Shown: positions 9,984 to 27,767 of the stretch, piece after piece
How the letters are laid out: every line of letters starts with the position of its first letter
Position numbering within the stretch: position 1 is the first letter of the stretch
Assembly: GCA_903915125.1 (NCBI GenBank)
Contig: CAIWRR010000064.1
Coordinates: 1-41,495 of the forward strand
Length of the DNA: 41,495 bases
Origin: Candidatus Firestoneibacteriota bacterium
Lineage (GTDB): Bacteria > Oederibacteriota > D2-FULL-39-29 > CAIOVX01
Reading direction: 5' to 3'
Notes under the pieces: generated by a model
The model's input: only the letters and a program-made list of their open reading frames with translations
The model's database searches: none
Told to the model about the DNA's origin: nothing
Position numbers and translations under genes: made by a program

Positions 9984-11261
9984 TTAATGTTTACTCTGGT
10001 ATAAAATCTTAATCCCCGGCCCGGTATAAATATCCGAATCCTTCACCTCTGCTTTAGTCTGTCCCTGTCGGGCGCCCTTAAGCCCTCTTTTCCTTCCGCC
10101 CCACGAACTTCCCGCGGAAATAGTTGAGGACAGCTTTTCCGACGGATAAATAGGGTGCGAAGCGAGCGGTATTGACGCGTTAATTATTTTCTCGATGCTT
10201 TTTACGTCAGCGCCCTGGTCCGGAGTCGCAAGTGTTATGGCGTGCCCCTTTCTGCCTGCTCTGCCGGTCCTGCCTATGCGGTGAACATAATTCTCCGGAT
10301 CGTCAGGTATCTCGTAGTTTATGACAAGTTCGATGTCGGTCACGTCAATGCCGCGAGCGGCTATATCAGTTGCCGCGAGTATTCTGAATTTGCCTGATTT
10401 GAACCCGTCGAGGGCTTCTTTCCTCTGGGACTGTGTCCTGTCGGAATGAATCTCGGAGGCTTTGTGCCCGAGCTGGCGGAGCGTTGAAGTTATTTTTGCT
10501 GCAGCTCTCTTGGTTCTGGTGAAGAGCAGAACCGAACCGCTATATTCCTTTAAGAGTTCGTTAAGCAATTTATTCTTGAGTTCCTTACTGACAACGAAAA
10601 GTTCCTGCGTGACAGTTTCCGCCGCGGTACCTGACGGCGCGATCTCCGTCCGGACCGGCAGCTGCATGTATCTTCTCGCGATATCAACTATTCCAAAAGG
10701 CATTGTTGCCGAGAAGAGCATTGTCTGTCTTTCCTTGGGAATCAACCTGATGATCCGCTCTATCTGCGGAAGGAAGCCCATATCGAGCATCCTGTCTGCT
10801 TCGTCCAGAACAAGGACTTCAACATTTTTAATATTTACGGTTTTGCGCTCCAGATGGTCGTTAAGCCTTCCCGGAGTGGCTATAATGATTTGAGGGTTAT
10901 GAGCTAAGGCCTGGTTCTGACCGAACATAGATACTCCGCCTATAAGCACGGCAGTCTTCATTTTGAAGAGGGGGGCAAGTTTTTGAAATGATTCTTCGAC
11001 CTGGATGGCTAATTCCCTTGTTGGCACAAGCACAAGTCCGCGTCCCTTGCCGTTCGCAAGCCGCTGTATCATCGGTATAGCGAATGCAAGGGTTTTTCCT
11101 GTGCCTGTCTGCGCAATGCCAATAATGTCTTTTCCTGCTATGGCCTGCGGGATTGCTTTGCTCTGGATGGGGGTCGGAACCTTGAAATTTAACTTCTCGA
11201 GAGCATCGAAAATGCCCGGCGCAATGCCGAGCCCGTAAAAACTTTCTTTTTCATTTTCCAT
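9984..11261 (-). CDS. DEAD-box ATP-dependent RNA helicase
   Basis: AQTGTGKT, VLVLDEADRML, FSATMP, ARGIDVTDIELVINYEIP, HRIGRTGRAG motifs. Confidence 0.96.
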   Translation of the reverse strand: MENEKESFYGLGIAPGIFDALEKLNFKVPTPIQSKAIPQAIAGKDIIGIAQTGTGKTLAFAIPMIQRLANGKGRGLVLVPTRELAIQVEESFQKLAPLFKMKTAVLIGGVSMFGQNQALAHNPQIIIATPGRLNDHLERKTVNIKNVEVLVLDEADRMLDMGFLPQIERIIRLIPKERQTMLFSATMPFGIVDIARRYMQLPVRTEIAPSGTAAETVTQELFVVSKELKNKLLNELLKEYSGSVLLFTRTKRAAAKITSTLRQLGHKASEIHSDRTQSQRKEALDGFKSGKFRILAATDIAARGIDVTDIELVINYEIPDDPENYVHRIGRTGRAGRKGHAITLATPDQGADVKSIEKIINASIPLASHPIYPSEKLSSTISAGSSWGGRKRGLKGARQGQTKAEVKDSDIYTGPGIKILYQSKH

Positions 11262-17904: not shown

Positions 17905-18771
17905 ATGAATAGCATGACGGGGTTTGGGCGGGGAGTTAAAGAAGCCAAGGGCGTCCGCTATTCAGTGGAGATAAGTTCGGTAAACCACAAGTACTTCGAT
18001 GTGAGTTTCCGCATGCCCGGATCAATGAACGAATATCAGAATAAGCTGAGAGAATTGCTGCACGCAAAAATTGACCGCGGTCATATTGAAGTCAATATTT
18101 TCGCATGGGAAAACAAGGAAGAGAAAGAAATAGTCGTAAACAGCAAGCTTGCGCGGAAATATCTCGGCGCGCTATCGGGGCTTGGAAAGACGCTGAAATT
18201 AGACGGGGGAATATCCATAGACCAAATACTTAAGTTTAACGACATAATCAGGACCTCGGAACATAAGGAAACCAGCTTCCCTGCGCTAAAAGAGGCTTTC
18301 GAGACAGCCCTTAAGAGCCTGACGGCCGCAAGAAAGAATGAAGGCGCGAAAGTCTGTAAAGACATAAGCGCCAGGACAGGTTCTCTGTCAAAGATGCTCG
18401 ATACCATAATAAAGATCAACGCCAGAATAATGCCGGAAAAGAAAAAGGCAGTAACGGAAAAACTGCAGGAGATATTTAAAAATGTAGAGAAGATAGACCA
18501 GAACAGGATTTGCGCGGAAGCTTCTTTGATGGTTGAAAGGGCGGACATCTCCGAAGAAATAGCCAGACTCTCGGGGCATATCGAGGAGTTTAAGCGGATA
18601 GCCGGGGAAAACAAACCCGCCGGCAGGAAGTTTGATTTCCTCCTGCAGGAGTTCATGAGGGAGATTAACACCATCGGCAGCAAATGCAACACAAATGAAA
18701 TATCCCATATTGTTGTCGCCTTCAAGGAAGAACTTGAGAAGGTGAGGGAGCAGGTTCAGAATGTTGAATAG
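17905..18771 (+). CDS. YicC/YloC family endoribonuclease
   Basis: MNSMTGFGRG start; C-terminal KFDFLLQEFMREINTIGSKCNTNEISHIVVAFKEELEKVREQVQNVE. Confidence 0.96.
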   Translation: MNSMTGFGRGVKEAKGVRYSVEISSVNHKYFDVSFRMPGSMNEYQNKLRELLHAKIDRGHIEVNIFAWENKEEKEIVVNSKLARKYLGALSGLGKTLKLDGGISIDQILKFNDIIRTSEHKETSFPALKEAFETALKSLTAARKNEGAKVCKDISARTGSLSKMLDTIIKINARIMPEKKKAVTEKLQEIFKNVEKIDQNRICAEASLMVERADISEEIARLSGHIEEFKRIAGENKPAGRKFDFLLQEFMREINTIGSKCNTNEISHIVVAFKEELEKVREQVQNVE

Positions 18772-19393
18772 CAGCGTCTTTAGCCGGGTTATGAAAAAAT
18801 GGAGCAGGACGAGAGGCAGGCTTGTGGTGATTTCCTCGCCGACTGCCGGTGGCAAGACAACTGTCTGCGCCGCGCTTATAAAATCCGACAGAACCTGCGT
18901 GCGCTCTGTTTCGTGCACTACTCGGCGCCCGAGAAAGGGCGAGGAAGACGGGGTTGACTATTATTTTCTGGGGGAAAAAGCATTCAAAGAGAAAATAAAA
19001 CAGGGTTTCTTCTTGGAATGGGCTAAAGTGCACGACAGTTATTACGGGACGCCCGGAAGGTACGCCGAAGACCTTCTTAAAAAGGGCAAGAACGTAATTT
19101 TAACAATCGACGTGAATGGGGGCAAGCAGGTTAAGAGGAATTTTAAGGACGCGTGTTTTATCTTTCTTCTGCCGCCGTCTTTCAATGAAATGCTCAAGAG
19201 GATTAAGAGGAGAGGGACGGAAAGCAGGGCCGCGGTGAGCCTGCGTCTTTCAACGGCTGAAAAGGAGTTGAAAGAACTGCCGGCGTATCAATACCTTGTG
19301 ATAAATGACAGTCTTAACGACGCTGTCTGCAGGATAAGATCTATTATTAAAGCTGAGAATTCAAAGATAAAGCATGCCAAGGAGGCACATTAA
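18761..19393 (+). CDS. gmk: guanylate kinase
   Basis: LVVISSPTAGGKTTV P-loop region, SVSCTTRRPRKGEEDGVDYYFL, YYGTP, LTIDVNGGKQVK. Confidence 0.93.
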   Translation: MLNSSVFSRVMKKWSRTRGRLVVISSPTAGGKTTVCAALIKSDRTCVRSVSCTTRRPRKGEEDGVDYYFLGEKAFKEKIKQGFFLEWAKVHDSYYGTPGRYAEDLLKKGKNVILTIDVNGGKQVKRNFKDACFIFLLPPSFNEMLKRIKRRGTESRAAVSLRLSTAEKELKELPAYQYLVINDSLNDAVCRIRSIIKAENSKIKHAKEAH

Positions 19394-19605
19394 TGTCCAC
19401 ATTCAAGCTTGAAAAGATGCTCGACAAGGTTGACAACAAATATATGCTGACGGTTATCGCCGCAAAACGAGCGAGGGTTCTGAATGACAGGAGTTTCGAT
19501 TTTGACACAAAGTCCGCTTTCCGCAAAGCAACAAGCATCGGACTGGAAGAGGTTCTTGAAGGGAAAGTGACGCTGAAAGCAGAGGGCAAGAAGAAGTCGA
19601 AGTAA
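19393..19605 (+). CDS. rpoZ: DNA-directed RNA polymerase omega subunit
   Basis: LEKMLDKVDNKYMLTVIAAKRARVL; position after gmk. Confidence 0.85.
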   Translation: MSTFKLEKMLDKVDNKYMLTVIAAKRARVLNDRSFDFDTKSAFRKATSIGLEEVLEGKVTLKAEGKKKSK

Positions 19606-19625: not shown

Positions 19626-20321
19626 GTGAGCATTAACGCAAGGGAACAGATAAAGAAACATATCAAAAGGGCCGTAGAGGATGACGGTTATATTTGTTTT
19701 AGGGAAAAGCCCGATAAACCCGAAGGCGCGAAAACTCCGCTTTTCGGGGGGAAGGCCGAAGCTCTCAAGGCGCTCTATGAAAGCATTAAAGACTGCAGGA
19801 AGTGTATTCTGGGTGACTCGCGGAAAAACTTCGTTTTCGGAGAGGGGGATCCCGAGGCAAAGCTGGTTTTTGTCGGCGAGGCCCCCGGTGCGACCGAGGA
19901 TGATCAGGGAAGACCTTTTGTTGGGAAAGCCGGCAAGCTGCTGGACAAAATAATAGAGTCCATAGGTTTCAAGAGAGAAGAGGTCTTTATTCTTAACGTG
20001 CTGAAGTGCCGCCCTCCTGATAACAGGCCGCCTGAACCTGAAGAGGAAAATCTCTGCATTCCGTATCTGAAGGCTCAGATTGAAATTATCGCCCCAAAAA
20101 TTATCTGCACGCTGGGAAATCCGGCGACTCATATTTTGTTGAAAACGGAGATAGGCATTACCAGACTCCGCGGCACAATGCAGGATTACAACGGAATAAC
20201 TGTAATTCCGACCTACCACCCTTCCGCCTGTCTCAGAAATCCTAACCTTAAAGTAGATGTCTGGCATGATGTAAAGCTGCTGAGGAAGGAATATGACAGA
20301 ATATGTCGAAGCGGCGATTAA
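19626..20321 (+). CDS. family 4 uracil-DNA glycosylase
   Basis: DCRKC, FVGEAPGATEDDQGRPFVGKAGKLLD, NVLKCRPPDNRPPEPEEENLC, YHPSACLRNP. Confidence 0.94.
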   Translation: MSINAREQIKKHIKRAVEDDGYICFREKPDKPEGAKTPLFGGKAEALKALYESIKDCRKCILGDSRKNFVFGEGDPEAKLVFVGEAPGATEDDQGRPFVGKAGKLLDKIIESIGFKREEVFILNVLKCRPPDNRPPEPEEENLCIPYLKAQIEIIAPKIICTLGNPATHILLKTEIGITRLRGTMQDYNGITVIPTYHPSACLRNPNLKVDVWHDVKLLRKEYDRICRSGD

Positions 20322-22149
20322 TGCGCCGGGAGATATTTCTTTCACATATCTGGTTCCGGAAGAGCTGAAAGGACGTCTTTCTTTATACCAGCGCGTTATT
20401 GTTCCTTTAGGCAACAGAAAAGCCATAGCCTTTGTAATAGGATTCCCTGCATCTTCTCCTGTTAAAAATCTCAAGAATATTTTGGCTGCTTATGACCCTT
20501 TGCCTGTCCTGGATAAGAATTTATCTGGCCTTGCGTTTTGGATGGCGGAAGAATATGCTTCTTCATTTGGAATGTGCCTTCACGCGATGCTTCCCGATAA
20601 GTTGAAAGTCTTCCCTCCTTTGAGAGGCAAGTTCCCGCCTTTGCCCGAGAGTTTTGTTGACGGCAGCGGTATTAAGCCTTCAGTACGGTCAATTGAACTT
20701 CCCGGAGCAAAAAGGAATGAGGAATACCTGGATATAATAAAAAAAACGGCGAAGGCCGGCGGCAAATCAATGATAATTCTTCCTGAAACGGAATCAATAC
20801 CTGGTTTTGCGGCGAAAGTCAGAGATGCCGGGGTACCGGTTGTTGAGTCGCACTCGAAACTTGCGCAAGGCAAACAATATTTAGCCCTTGCAGCCATGCA
20901 AGGCGAGGGGCCTCTGTGCGTTGTTGCTTCAAGACAGTGTCTCTTTCTGCCGGTTAGAGACTTGCGCGCAGTAATTCTCGAGGAAGAGAACGCCTCTATA
21001 TACAGGAGCGACGAAACTCCCAGATTCCTTGCCAGGGATGTACTGGTTGAGCGCGCAAAAAGCTCGGGATTTGAAGTTATTCTTGGTTCTTACCTGCTTT
21101 CGGTGGACACAAGGCTCCGTTTTCCTCCAGAAAAGAGCGAGTACTTTAAACCCGGCAGGATAACAGTAGTTGCTTTTAAGAACAGGTTTAGGATGCTCTC
21201 TCCGCTGGCCGTTAAGCCGCTTGAGGATGCTCTAAAACGCGGGAAAAACGCCGTTCTCATAACTACCAGAAAGGGTTACGCCACTGCGGTTTTTTGCGAC
21301 GATTGCGGCGATGTTATCCGCTGCAGTAAATGCGGTATACCGCTTGTTTTGCACAAAGAAGAGAACGTCCTGCGCTGCGGCTACTGCGGCGGGAAAAGCC
21401 CGGCCCGTGATGTTTGTCCAAAATGTAAAGGTGTACTCCTGTCAGGCATAGGCGATGGAGTTGAGCGAGCGGAATCTGAGCTTAGTGAACTTATTCCGGG
21501 GGTAAGTATCGCAAGGATTGACGCCGAAGTTCTTAAAAAAAAATCTGACCGGACCGGCTCTTTGGCAGAGTTTAGATCCGGGAACGGCAAGCTCGCGGTT
21601 GGAACCCACCTCGCCATTGGCTATCTGGCTGGCATGGAAGACGGAGCCGCTGTGATATCCGGTATTGAGCACATAATGAACAGAAATGATTTCCAGGCTG
21701 TTGAAAAAGCTCTTTCTTTTGTCGCAAAAGCAGCTGATACCGCTCCTGCTTCCGCAAAACTGATATTGCAGGTCAGGGATCCCAAAAATCCCGTGGCCAG
21801 AGCCGTCCAGGGCGGATCGGTTGCCGAGTTTATGAAAATAGAACTTGCTCAAAGAAAGGAGCTTCTTTACCCGCCATTCTCAAGACTGGCTTTTGTGACT
21901 CTTAACGGCAGGACAGAAGAAGAGCTTAAGACCATCATTGGAATATTTGGCGTTTCCCTGGAGACGCACAGCGGGGATGCAGTCGAAATTCTTGGCCCGC
22001 TTGAACTCGGTAAATCTCTTGGGGGACACAGGGCTCAATATCTTCTGCGCTCACAGAAAGGGGTCGGCGCCTTAATTAAGACGGCTAAGTCAAAACTTTT
22101 CCAGGATAAAAAGTTAAGAGCTAGAATGCCTGATGTAAATATTATTTGA
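20293..22149 (+). CDS. priA: PriA-like primosomal protein N' with degenerate helicase motifs
   Basis: Zn-binding FCDDCGDVIRCSKCGIPLVLHKEENVLRCGYCGGKSPARDVCPKC; PrYhARDV-equivalent TPRFLARDV; C-terminal LLYPPFSRLAFV; Walker A/DEEH/GSATPS/QVAGRAGR equivalents altered. Confidence 0.85.
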   Translation: MTEYVEAAINAPGDISFTYLVPEELKGRLSLYQRVIVPLGNRKAIAFVIGFPASSPVKNLKNILAAYDPLPVLDKNLSGLAFWMAEEYASSFGMCLHAMLPDKLKVFPPLRGKFPPLPESFVDGSGIKPSVRSIELPGAKRNEEYLDIIKKTAKAGGKSMIILPETESIPGFAAKVRDAGVPVVESHSKLAQGKQYLALAAMQGEGPLCVVASRQCLFLPVRDLRAVILEEENASIYRSDETPRFLARDVLVERAKSSGFEVILGSYLLSVDTRLRFPPEKSEYFKPGRITVVAFKNRFRMLSPLAVKPLEDALKRGKNAVLITTRKGYATAVFCDDCGDVIRCSKCGIPLVLHKEENVLRCGYCGGKSPARDVCPKCKGVLLSGIGDGVERAESELSELIPGVSIARIDAEVLKKKSDRTGSLAEFRSGNGKLAVGTHLAIGYLAGMEDGAAVISGIEHIMNRNDFQAVEKALSFVAKAADTAPASAKLILQVRDPKNPVARAVQGGSVAEFMKIELAQRKELLYPPFSRLAFVTLNGRTEEELKTIIGIFGVSLETHSGDAVEILGPLELGKSLGGHRAQYLLRSQKGVGALIKTAKSKLFQDKKLRARMPDVNII

Positions 22150-22249: not shown

Positions 22250-23371
22250 GTGGAAAATGAGATTAAGCATAATCTAAGAATGCGGATGGACGCAGTAATT
22301 CTAACAGCAGCTTTTTTAGCGCTATTTACAGCGCCCTTATTCCCCGCGAAAGTAATGACAGGCATAATCGGAGACCTTCTGTCCGACGATTCCGCATTAA
22401 GGCAAAAGGCGCTTTACAGGCTTGATTCCTGTGATGCGAAAGAAAAAGAAGAAATCATTAAATCCCTTGTACTTGGCGCCTGTAAACGAGAGGTTTCCCA
22501 GAAATACGCCTTGCAGGATCTTAAAGCCATTGGTGTTTCCGCTATTTCCCCGGCCATGAATATTCTCGATGATTACAGTCTTGCCGAAGAGCAACCCTGG
22601 GCGGGTTTATGCGTGTCAATCGGGAATCCGGCTATTCCTGTTCTCAAACAACTCTTAAATTCAGAGCAGAACAGGTCTCTTGCGGCAGCGGCGCTTATCC
22701 TGATGATTGATCCGAAGATTCCCGATGTTACCTGCTTTCTTTCAAGGGCTTTAAGCAGATCAAAAGATGACAAGTTGTCAATGTTTTGCCTGAGAAATCT
22801 AAGCCATGCAATTAACCCAACGGACTCGGATATAAAAGCAATAAGCGGACTTGTTGAGGCCGGAGGGAGTATGGGCTCTGCCTCGCTAAATTGCCTGGAT
22901 AAATTCGGCGTTAAATCTGCGTCGGCCGCGCCGGTAGTCATAAAAGCCCTTAAAAAAGGGGAAAAAGACAGCAAGGTCCTGGCCTTAAAGGTTCTGGGCG
23001 GCATGGCAGAAGCTTCGTATGAGTCAGTGCCATATATATGCGAGCTGGCTGCCGGAGGAGACCTGGTAATGCGGTTGAATGCTCTAAGGGCTTTGGGTCA
23101 AATAGGCGTAGACCCGTCCCGCGTTCTGCCGGTTCTTGAGGAAGCGCTAAAAGACGACGATGAGTTCGTAAGGGCCTCAGCAGGAGAGGCAACCGGACTT
23201 TTTGACAAGAAAGCCGTTCGTTCCGTCCCGGTTCTTTCCTCTGCGTTGATGGCGTCAAAAAACATTTACACGCAGGATAAAATAATCCAGGCATTGAGGC
23301 GCATTGGCACTGAAGAAGCCATCGCGGCTGTTGACAGGTTCAGGAAGGAAGTAAGGCAAAAGAAAAATTGA
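22250..23371 (+). CDS. HEAT-repeat domain protein, probably exported
   Basis: hydrophobic N-terminal segment; repeated helical units ending in VLPVLEEALKDDDEFVRASAGEATG. Confidence 0.75.
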   Translation: MENEIKHNLRMRMDAVILTAAFLALFTAPLFPAKVMTGIIGDLLSDDSALRQKALYRLDSCDAKEKEEIIKSLVLGACKREVSQKYALQDLKAIGVSAISPAMNILDDYSLAEEQPWAGLCVSIGNPAIPVLKQLLNSEQNRSLAAAALILMIDPKIPDVTCFLSRALSRSKDDKLSMFCLRNLSHAINPTDSDIKAISGLVEAGGSMGSASLNCLDKFGVKSASAAPVVIKALKKGEKDSKVLALKVLGGMAEASYESVPYICELAAGGDLVMRLNALRALGQIGVDPSRVLPVLEEALKDDDEFVRASAGEATGLFDKKAVRSVPVLSSALMASKNIYTQDKIIQALRRIGTEEAIAAVDRFRKEVRQKKN

Positions 23372-25217: not shown

Positions 25218-27767
25218 ATGAGACATGTAGCAATAAGATTGGTGTGTGTTTCCCTCCTTTTCACAATCAATGCGGCTTTCGGGCAAACGTTTCATCAAAT
25301 AGGTCTATCCGGCGGCGGCGCCACCTATTATCCGGCCATTTCCCCTGTAAATAAGAACTTAATGTTCGCGAGTTGTGATATGTCAGGTTTCTACAAGAGT
25401 CAGGATACCGGTATGACCTGGAATCTTGTTGATTTTCATCAGCTAAACAGCTGTAATCAATGCTACCCCGCTTTTGATCCGACTGACCAATCTAAAATCT
25501 ATAACGCATCTAAAGCTATTCTTAAAATCAGCAGCGACGCAGGAAGCACCTGGTCTACCGTGCGATCATACTCACCGGATAGCGCGATTTACAGGCTATA
25601 TGTCGACCCGTTTAGTCCGAGCGTAATCTACGCTGGGACAAACGCCGCAATTTATAAAAACAGCACGAAATGCACTGACATCACGGATTCGGCCCCAGCA
25701 GCCGGTTTCTACATATCCAATTCGGGATCAAAGTACGAGTATGCGGCAACAGCAAAAAACATCTGGCGCTCAGGCAACGACGGCGCAAACTGGGCAGTTA
25801 AAAGTCCGGCAGGCCCATCCGGTTTGAACAGTTTCTGCGGCGGGAGCAATGGCGTTACCACGAGACTGTACTGCACGGGAACCGACGGAAAGGTTTATGT
25901 TTCCGTTACTAACGGCGATAACTGGGCTGCCGCTTCCACTTCGGGCATTCCACTGACAGACAGGGGGTATCTATATTCGGTCGTTTGCGCTGAAACCAAT
26001 CCCGATGTTGCCTACGCAATGGTCAACAATGCCGCGGTTTCCTGGGATCTGAATATTTATAAGACTTCAGACGGAGGGAACAGCTGGACCAATGTTTTTA
26101 TTGCTAATCCTTTTGCCTGGCAATCAAGTCCTCCGGCAGATCCGCCGGGAGACAACGTTACGCTCGGCTGGCAGGCATATGATGAGCCGGGATGGAACAG
26201 CACTTTTACCTACGGCTTTTATGCCTGCAGGACTGATCCAAATTATGTGATTGGAGCCGGCGGAGGAGAGGTTTACCTTACAACCGACGGAGGCGCCACC
26301 TGGAACGGAGTCTATGTTAAATACGCCGATACCGGAACGCGCGGCAAGCACAAAAAATGGCAGAGCAACGGGCTGAATGTAACAACAGTCTGGAATTATT
26401 ACATACATCCGGCGGACTCGACGAAACACTATATTTGCTATACCGATATAGGACTGGCGCAGAGCAATGACAGCGGTCTGACCTGGTTCTCTTCTTGGAC
26501 CGGAACTCCTTTTCCCAACACTTTCTACGATCTGGCTTTTGATCCCAATTCACCCGGCACAATATATGGCGCTGGTTCTGCGGATCACGACATACCTACC
26601 GGCTGGGGGCAATCACAGGACACGCCGGATTATCCGGGCGGTCCGGTCATTAGCGCAGATTACGGCAAGACCTGGGCGGCAATGAGTTTTTCAGGCTTGA
26701 CGACGAAGATCTGGTCTCAGGGAACCTATCCCTATCCCTGCACAGGTATAGCGGTGGATACCGCGGGGACAGCCCTTTATATAACTCAATACGGCGATGG
26801 AGTTTATAAGTCCGTAAAGAGCGGCGGAGTTTGGGGCGCCTGGACCAAATTAAATGTTCCTGCCATAAACAATAACAATCACTTCTACAAAATTAAAGTT
26901 CACAAAGACGGGACAATCTTTGCCGGGTTGGTTGGGAGGATCACTTATAGCGGAGGAACGTGGGGTTCCGGCAGCTGGCAGACTCCTGATGCCGGAGCTG
27001 TTTATGTGTCCAAGGACGGCGGCACCACATGGAGTAATATCGCTCAGAATGTTTATTTGGGAGGTCCTTTGTACAATACAAGGCTTTTCGAGGCGGATCC
27101 GGAGAACAGCAATATTGTTTATCTCTGCGCGGCTGCATCGCGGAACGGCTCTGATTACGGCGTGTACAAAACCGTTAATGGCGGAGTTTCCTGGAGCAAG
27201 TTCACTTTTACCGGCACATATAATCAAACCTATGGAATGGCAACGCCGGAAACCGTCAGCATTGACCCGTCTAATACTGCGGTGCTCTACTTATCCTCAA
27301 ATGATAACAGCCTTTGGAAGAGCCCTGACGGAGGCATTACCTGGTCAGCGGTTTCTTTCCCGTTTCTTCCAATTGATAATGTAAGAGTCGATTCGGCAAA
27401 TGACTCCATATATATATGCTCCTATGGCTGCGGGGTTTGGACAAGCTCGCAGGGCGTTACGTTGCCGCCTCCGACAGGCGGGACTACAACTATAAACTCT
27501 GTGGTTTTTCCCAATCCCTGCAATCTTTCAGAGGGCAAGAGCGTTAAGATTGCGTCTATTTCTCTCCAGCCGACTGCACTCGAGATTTATAATAGCAGCG
27601 GCGCGCTTGTCAGGCGGCTGACGGTGTTCTCACAGGACGCGAATGGATTTTTTGTTGTTTGGGACGGGAAGAACAGCAATGGAGATATGGTCGCGCGTGG
27701 AATTTACCTCTATTCCATAATGTCGCCTGCAGGCAAAAAGACAGGAAAGATTGGTATAATTAAGTGA
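25218..27767 (+). CDS. secreted BNR/GH74-like beta-propeller protein with C-terminal FlgD-Ig-like domain
   Basis: signal peptide; repeated S.DGG.TW motifs (KTSDGGNSWTN, LTTDGGATWNG, VSKDGGTTWSN, KSPDGGITWSA); C-term VVFPNPCN...VWDGKNSNGDMVARGIYLYSI. Confidence 0.85.
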   Translation: MRHVAIRLVCVSLLFTINAAFGQTFHQIGLSGGGATYYPAISPVNKNLMFASCDMSGFYKSQDTGMTWNLVDFHQLNSCNQCYPAFDPTDQSKIYNASKAILKISSDAGSTWSTVRSYSPDSAIYRLYVDPFSPSVIYAGTNAAIYKNSTKCTDITDSAPAAGFYISNSGSKYEYAATAKNIWRSGNDGANWAVKSPAGPSGLNSFCGGSNGVTTRLYCTGTDGKVYVSVTNGDNWAAASTSGIPLTDRGYLYSVVCAETNPDVAYAMVNNAAVSWDLNIYKTSDGGNSWTNVFIANPFAWQSSPPADPPGDNVTLGWQAYDEPGWNSTFTYGFYACRTDPNYVIGAGGGEVYLTTDGGATWNGVYVKYADTGTRGKHKKWQSNGLNVTTVWNYYIHPADSTKHYICYTDIGLAQSNDSGLTWFSSWTGTPFPNTFYDLAFDPNSPGTIYGAGSADHDIPTGWGQSQDTPDYPGGPVISADYGKTWAAMSFSGLTTKIWSQGTYPYPCTGIAVDTAGTALYITQYGDGVYKSVKSGGVWGAWTKLNVPAINNNNHFYKIKVHKDGTIFAGLVGRITYSGGTWGSGSWQTPDAGAVYVSKDGGTTWSNIAQNVYLGGPLYNTRLFEADPENSNIVYLCAAASRNGSDYGVYKTVNGGVSWSKFTFTGTYNQTYGMATPETVSIDPSNTAVLYLSSNDNSLWKSPDGGITWSAVSFPFLPIDNVRVDSANDSIYICSYGCGVWTSSQGVTLPPPTGGTTTINSVVFPNPCNLSEGKSVKIASISLQPTALEIYNSSGALVRRLTVFSQDANGFFVVWDGKNSNGDMVARGIYLYSIMSPAGKKTGKIGIIK

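Follow-up and report, generated by a model that had tools for sequence, protein, structure and literature searches.

PriA is commonly portrayed as a helicase, yet Escherichia coli can live without the motor, which makes its conservation puzzling. In actinobacterial PriA the ATPase motifs are degenerate. A PriA pseudohelicase has been published from Deinococcus radiodurans (Lopper et al. 2015, PMC4504706); it has no measurable ATPase activity and negligible unwinding activity, and it binds single-stranded DNA, forks and DnaB. The PriAs of Deinococcus-Thermus also carry arginine for lysine in Walker A (PMC4504706). As reported in the same article, the K230R variant of E. coli PriA has lost ATPase and helicase activity and primosome assembly persists. 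The sequence-only reading of the locus described below had invoked Deinococcus as a precedent, and the literature bears this out (PMC4504706).

Domains kept and motifs erased

The window, that is, the whole stretch of 41,495 nucleotides that was analysed, belongs to a contig of the order Candidatus Firestonebacteria. At 20293-22149 (+ strand, as are all features of this gene given below) it carries a priA-like gene, a putative PriA pseudohelicase of 618 amino acids, with an ATG start and the intact open reading frame that the sequence-only reading had reported. The protein scored 244.8 bits against the NCBIfam priA model TIGR00595, whose cut-off is 230.35, matched the Pfam families PriA_3primeBD and Zn_ribbon_PriA, and recovered the PriA structures of E. 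coli and Klebsiella at E values of about 1e-50. The gene is firmly a PriA orthologue.

The protein was aligned with E. coli PriA and other canonical PriAs, about 20 in all, and the columns conserved in at least 90% of canonical PriA were taken as landmarks. The 3′ DNA-binding domain (residues 8-101, 20314-20595; PF17764, E 5.7e-21) keeps 12 of 15 landmark residues. The Cys-rich zinc module inserted in lobe 2 (21295-21426; PF18319) consists of four CxxC pairs, CDDC, CSKC, CGYC and CPKC at residues 335, 344, 362 and 375; all eight cysteines are in place, as had been claimed, and they are present in 9/9 members of the order, with 12 of 13 landmarks kept in the Cys-rich region. The C-terminal domain (21850-22146), also described earlier as retained, keeps the YPP and LGP landmarks and 6 of 8 columns. 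The helicase-motif columns are another matter, with only 14/34 kept in lobe 1 and 5/18 in lobe 2. Two features are additional to the first description. Between the 3′ DNA-binding domain and lobe 1 a short linker (20605-20694) stands where E. coli PriA has its winged helix; this domain is missing, and in the nine order members 8-19 residues take the place of about 78. The C-terminal Asp-Pro that is conserved in canonical PriA (D728-P729 in E. coli) is lost as well. AlphaFold2 was run on the protein together with three close relatives and gave a mean pLDDT of 39; a scan of viral contigs, made to deepen the alignment for structure prediction, yielded no PriAs.

The signatures of an SF2 DNA helicase, namely Walker A (GxTGSGKT), Walker B (DEEH) and motifs III, V and VI, are absent from the protein, and each of the degenerate strings quoted in the sequence-only reading was found in its place. 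At motif I (from residue 136, 20698-20730) the alignment gives -LPGAKRNEEYL where canonical PriA has GVTGSGKTEVYL, and the column of the catalytic Walker A lysine, K230 of E. coli, is occupied by arginine in 9/9 order members. Motif II reads EEEN instead of DEEH (residues 230-233, 20980-20991), identical in all nine, so that three acidic residues are left. Motif III, GSATPS in canonical PriA, reads GSYLLS (residues 265-270, 21085-21102) and GSYSLS in the sister family. At motif V, GTHLAIGYLAG stands for GTQMxAKGxDF (from residue 437, 21601-21633). At motif VI, KAADTAPA stands for QVAGRAGR (21727-21750), within a stretch FVAKAADTA that starts at residue 476, and both arginine fingers are lost. 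The P-loop glycines and threonine are gone, and so are the residues most important to motifs V and VI. The comparison with canonical PriAs, that of E. coli among them, thus upholds the loss of motifs behind the earlier description of the helicase core as apparently dead.

Distribution, selection and gene order

The degenerate form is a lineage trait of the order. It was found in 9/9 genomes, two of them 98% complete, which fall in two families with a PriA identity of about 38-40% between them, and all nine proteins exceed the TIGR00595 cut-off with 239-273 bits. An intact second PriA had been named as an observation that would speak against the sequence-only reading; by profile search no second or intact PriA was found in the window's genome, a fragmented metagenome-assembled genome (87.8% complete, 277 contigs), or in any of the nine. 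The other TIGR00595 matches in the window's genome were considered as candidates for a second PriA and rejected, being short helicase-core matches inside long ORFs that correspond, by length and by score on the RecG model, to RecG, Mfd and UvrB. The phylum is represented by 36 further genomes; near-complete canonical PriAs (547-649 bits) occur in 33, and the remaining three, which are 61-93% complete, contain only PriA fragments or no clear PriA. Within this phylum it was also possible to see that the canonical, motif-bearing PriAs L020, L023 and L025 lack most of the winged-helix domain; the domain is therefore no strict hallmark of PriA, and its loss is separate from that of the motor. The winged helix may have been lost first and the motor later, with L020 as a plausible picture of the ancestor.

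The gene is under strong purifying selection, and not evolving neutrally, the other outcome that had been named against the sequence-only reading. By the Nei-Gojobori method the least saturated pair (dS 0.91) gave a dN/dS of 0.099 and the other pairs with finite dS gave 0.05-0.14, values that are approximate since many pairs are saturated in dS; no pair came near neutrality. The former motif regions are constrained no less than the rest of PriA, with EEEN and GSYxLS fixed in 9/9. Considering that the former motifs stay constrained in this way, the helicase lobes have been remodelled and not abandoned.

The gene also sits at the orthologous locus. It is preceded by gmk, for guanylate kinase (18761-19393, +), by rpoZ, for the omega subunit of RNA polymerase (19393-19605, +), both conserved upstream neighbours of priA, and by a gene for a family-4 uracil-DNA glycosylase, UDG4 (19626-20321, +), which overlaps the start of priA by 29 bases. 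In 9/9 genomes of the order the genes run gmk-rpoZ-UDG4-priA, and the reading frames of UDG4 and priA overlap; UDG4 also precedes canonical priA in two further families (L020, L022) belonging to the phylum. An operon-specific role of PriA with UDG4 was set aside, since UDG4 also lies beside canonical priA in these related families. Directly downstream, the window encodes a HEAT-repeat protein (22250-23371, +), which is 47-51% identical within the genus and diverges much faster than its neighbours; it was not seen in the priA flanks of the sister family. Elsewhere in the window there are a 425-residue ORF with a helicase core and a weak match to the RecG model (9984-11261, −), probably a DEAD-box-type helicase, and an 849-residue BNR/sortilin-like repeat protein whose C-terminal domain is FlgD-Ig-like or type IX sorting-like (25218-27767, +).

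Proposed function, alternatives and recurrence

We propose, with a probability of roughly 0.74, that the window PriA, the only one found in the organism, is an ATPase-dead platform that binds forks and loads DnaB. The protein would descend from a canonical PriA that has lost the normal SF2 binding and hydrolysis of ATP and, with it, the unwinding of DNA. Abandoned replication forks would be recognised via the 3′ DNA-binding domain and the C-terminal domain, and the intact zinc module together with the remodelled helicase lobes would form a rigid platform for the recruitment and loading of DnaB, in which the loader DciA probably takes part. If the lagging arm is unwound at all, this would be the task of another helicase such as RecG or one of the UvrD type. 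Motor-less fork recognition and DnaB loading seems the best reading because the PriA of D. radiodurans binds forks and DnaB without ATPase activity, and the helicase-independent PriA scaffold suggested by the sequence-only reading gains support from the loss of the ATPase motifs with DNA-binding and zinc modules kept across nine genomes. As for partners, profile searches found DnaB and DciA encoded in the window's genome, and RecG, SSB and UvrD-type helicases in the order; those missing from single genomes look like a consequence of assembly incompleteness. For Caulobacter it has been suggested that DciA and PriA work together (PMC9825169).

Three features, read from the alignment, would weigh against such a platform: the altered SSB pocket, the disappearance of the winged-helix DNA contact of E. 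coli PriA and the continued constraint on the former motif regions. In Klebsiella PriA the pocket for the SSB tail includes Tyr86. The corresponding tyrosine (Y87 in E. coli numbering; residue 87, 20551-20553 of the window) is glutamate in 9/9 order members and tyrosine in 25/25 canonical rows, and Lys371 of the same pocket falls in an alignment gap in the order. The SSB of the order genomes keeps its acidic tail, DDDKPPF or EEDKPPF, and the PriA of S. aureus, likewise devoid of the pocket, still binds SSB.

The chance that the gene is a decaying pseudogene or an artefact of assembly or sequencing is next to nil. A point in favour is that the window comes from a fragmented assembly, but the full-length form recurs in nine separate genomes of two divergent families, its dN/dS is far from neutral, and the eight cysteines, EEEN and GSYxLS do not vary; cross-genome conservation refutes both a pseudogene and a frameshift artefact. 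It is unlikely, to a lesser degree, that the protein has taken on a different task as a scaffold or in binding DNA, possibly together with the overlapping UDG, and that replication restart in these organisms is independent of PriA. The exchange of the SSB-pocket tyrosine for glutamate throughout the order, the constant overlap with UDG4 and the constraint on the former motif regions with their newly fixed residues would agree with such a change, and this constraint could reflect a new function there; on the other side, the pairing of canonical PriA with UDG4 in related families means that it marks no new role, the order genomes hold no other PriA, and the best-kept parts are the 3′ DNA-binding domain, the zinc module and the C-terminal landmarks, through which known PriAs bind forks and assemble primosomes. 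It is also very improbable that the lobes retain a divergent form of nucleotide binding, with arginine in the role of lysine, for weak movement on DNA or as an ATP switch. The arginine is fixed in 9/9 and recurs in 15/20 PriAs of a second phylum, and the acidic residues of motif II are left, but the P-loop has lost its glycines and threonine, and motifs V and VI their essential residues, among them the arginine fingers; furthermore, K230R by itself abolishes the ATPase of E. coli PriA, and the PriA of D. radiodurans, also with arginine at this position, has no measurable ATPase (PMC4504706).

That second phylum was reached through G057, one of the sampled distant genomes, which also has a motif-less PriA. 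Among 41 genomes drawn from its phylum there was no PriA with a canonical score (the best had 289 bits), and the 20 PriAs that were fully read (L096-L115) are all without Walker A, Walker B and motif VI and all keep the eight cysteines; the position of the Walker A lysine is occupied by arginine in 15 and by glutamine in five. The question of origin, which is distinct from that of mechanism, is whether the form in the order and these dead PriAs derive from a single event, by transfer or from a common ancestor. We regard this as rather doubtful. The degenerate PriAs all lie on one side of a branch with support of 99/98 for all columns and 81/78 without the motif columns, those of the order being nearest to family f31 of the second phylum; gmk is upstream in both groups, and the Walker A arginine is common to many. 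However, long branches and the loss of the same columns pull degenerate rows together, and because of the long branches the placement of dead PriAs in the trees was not trusted. On a profile built from firestonebacterial PriA, canonical PriAs, with 203-325 bits, nearly all rank above those of the second phylum, with 136-210 bits, though fast evolution in the latter could also lower its scores. The winged helix is lost in the order but kept in several families of the second phylum, and the UDG4-priA arrangement ties the order to the canonical PriAs of its own phylum. Independent loss of the motor in the two groups is therefore favoured, not proven.

The equally dead, zinc-intact PriAs of the second phylum suggest that loss of the helicase is recurrent in PriA, and this recurrence is the more interesting part of the finding. 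Best PriA E values were weak (about 1e-20 to 1e-95) in roughly 40 of the 376-389 sampled bacterial genomes, from some twenty families, most others having about 1e-120 or better; the count was made by eye on scores only and includes some contig fragments or split hits, and these genomes are candidates for further PriA pseudohelicases. The general proposition stands at even odds in our estimation: PriA motor loss would be recurrent in bacteria, in Firestonebacteria, in the second phylum and probably in more, with the eight-cysteine module always kept and arginine usual in Walker A, which would imply that PriA is universally selected for loading DnaB without ATP, the helicase being optional. From lineages that shed the motor and retained the modules for DNA binding and zinc it can be seen which parts of PriA are indispensable. 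The firestonebacterial protein, with 618 residues and neither winged helix nor ATPase motifs, may offer a compact minimal model of DnaB loading that needs no helicase activity, in an organism with DciA.

Comparison with known PriA systems

Like the canonical PriA of E. coli and Klebsiella (TIGR00595, PDB 6dcr and 4nl4), the window PriA has the 3′ DNA-binding domain, the lobe framework, the eight-cysteine module and the C-terminal domain in the same domain order; unlike it, it has no ATPase motifs, no winged helix and no Asp-Pro end, and the tyrosine of the SSB pocket is replaced by glutamate. The E. coli K230R protein is a precedent for the way in which it may work, considering that ATPase-dead alleles assemble primosomes and support viability (PMC4504706); K230R differs in being one engineered change to a helicase that is intact in all other respects. 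With respect to actinobacterial PriA, the window protein reaches at most 139 bits on the models of that branch (NCBIfam PRK14873) and up to 267 bits on the main PriA models, and because of these lower scores it is considered to be unlike the actinobacterial branch. In the searchable literature we found neither the actinobacterial precedent of a degenerate PriA, nor PriA pseudohelicases other than that of Deinococcus, nor a report of one for the Firestonebacteria lineage.

The PriA of D. radiodurans and that of the window are both orthologues without working Walker A and B, with arginine in Walker A and with the DNA-binding parts kept; for the D. radiodurans protein, action without hydrolysis of ATP has been demonstrated. 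The features of the D. radiodurans type, namely loss of Walker A and B, replacement of lysine by arginine, a sole PriA and a gene under selection, were all found in the window PriA. The differences are that the published defect of the D. radiodurans protein concerns motifs I and II, whereas the window PriA has also lost motifs III, V and VI and the winged helix, and that the former, from a different phylum, is known by its biochemistry and the latter from its sequence. The pseudohelicase kind of PriA was thus already known; what is new is the lineage, as far as the searchable literature goes, the minimal version devoid of the winged helix, the more thorough erasure of the motifs and the second phylum.
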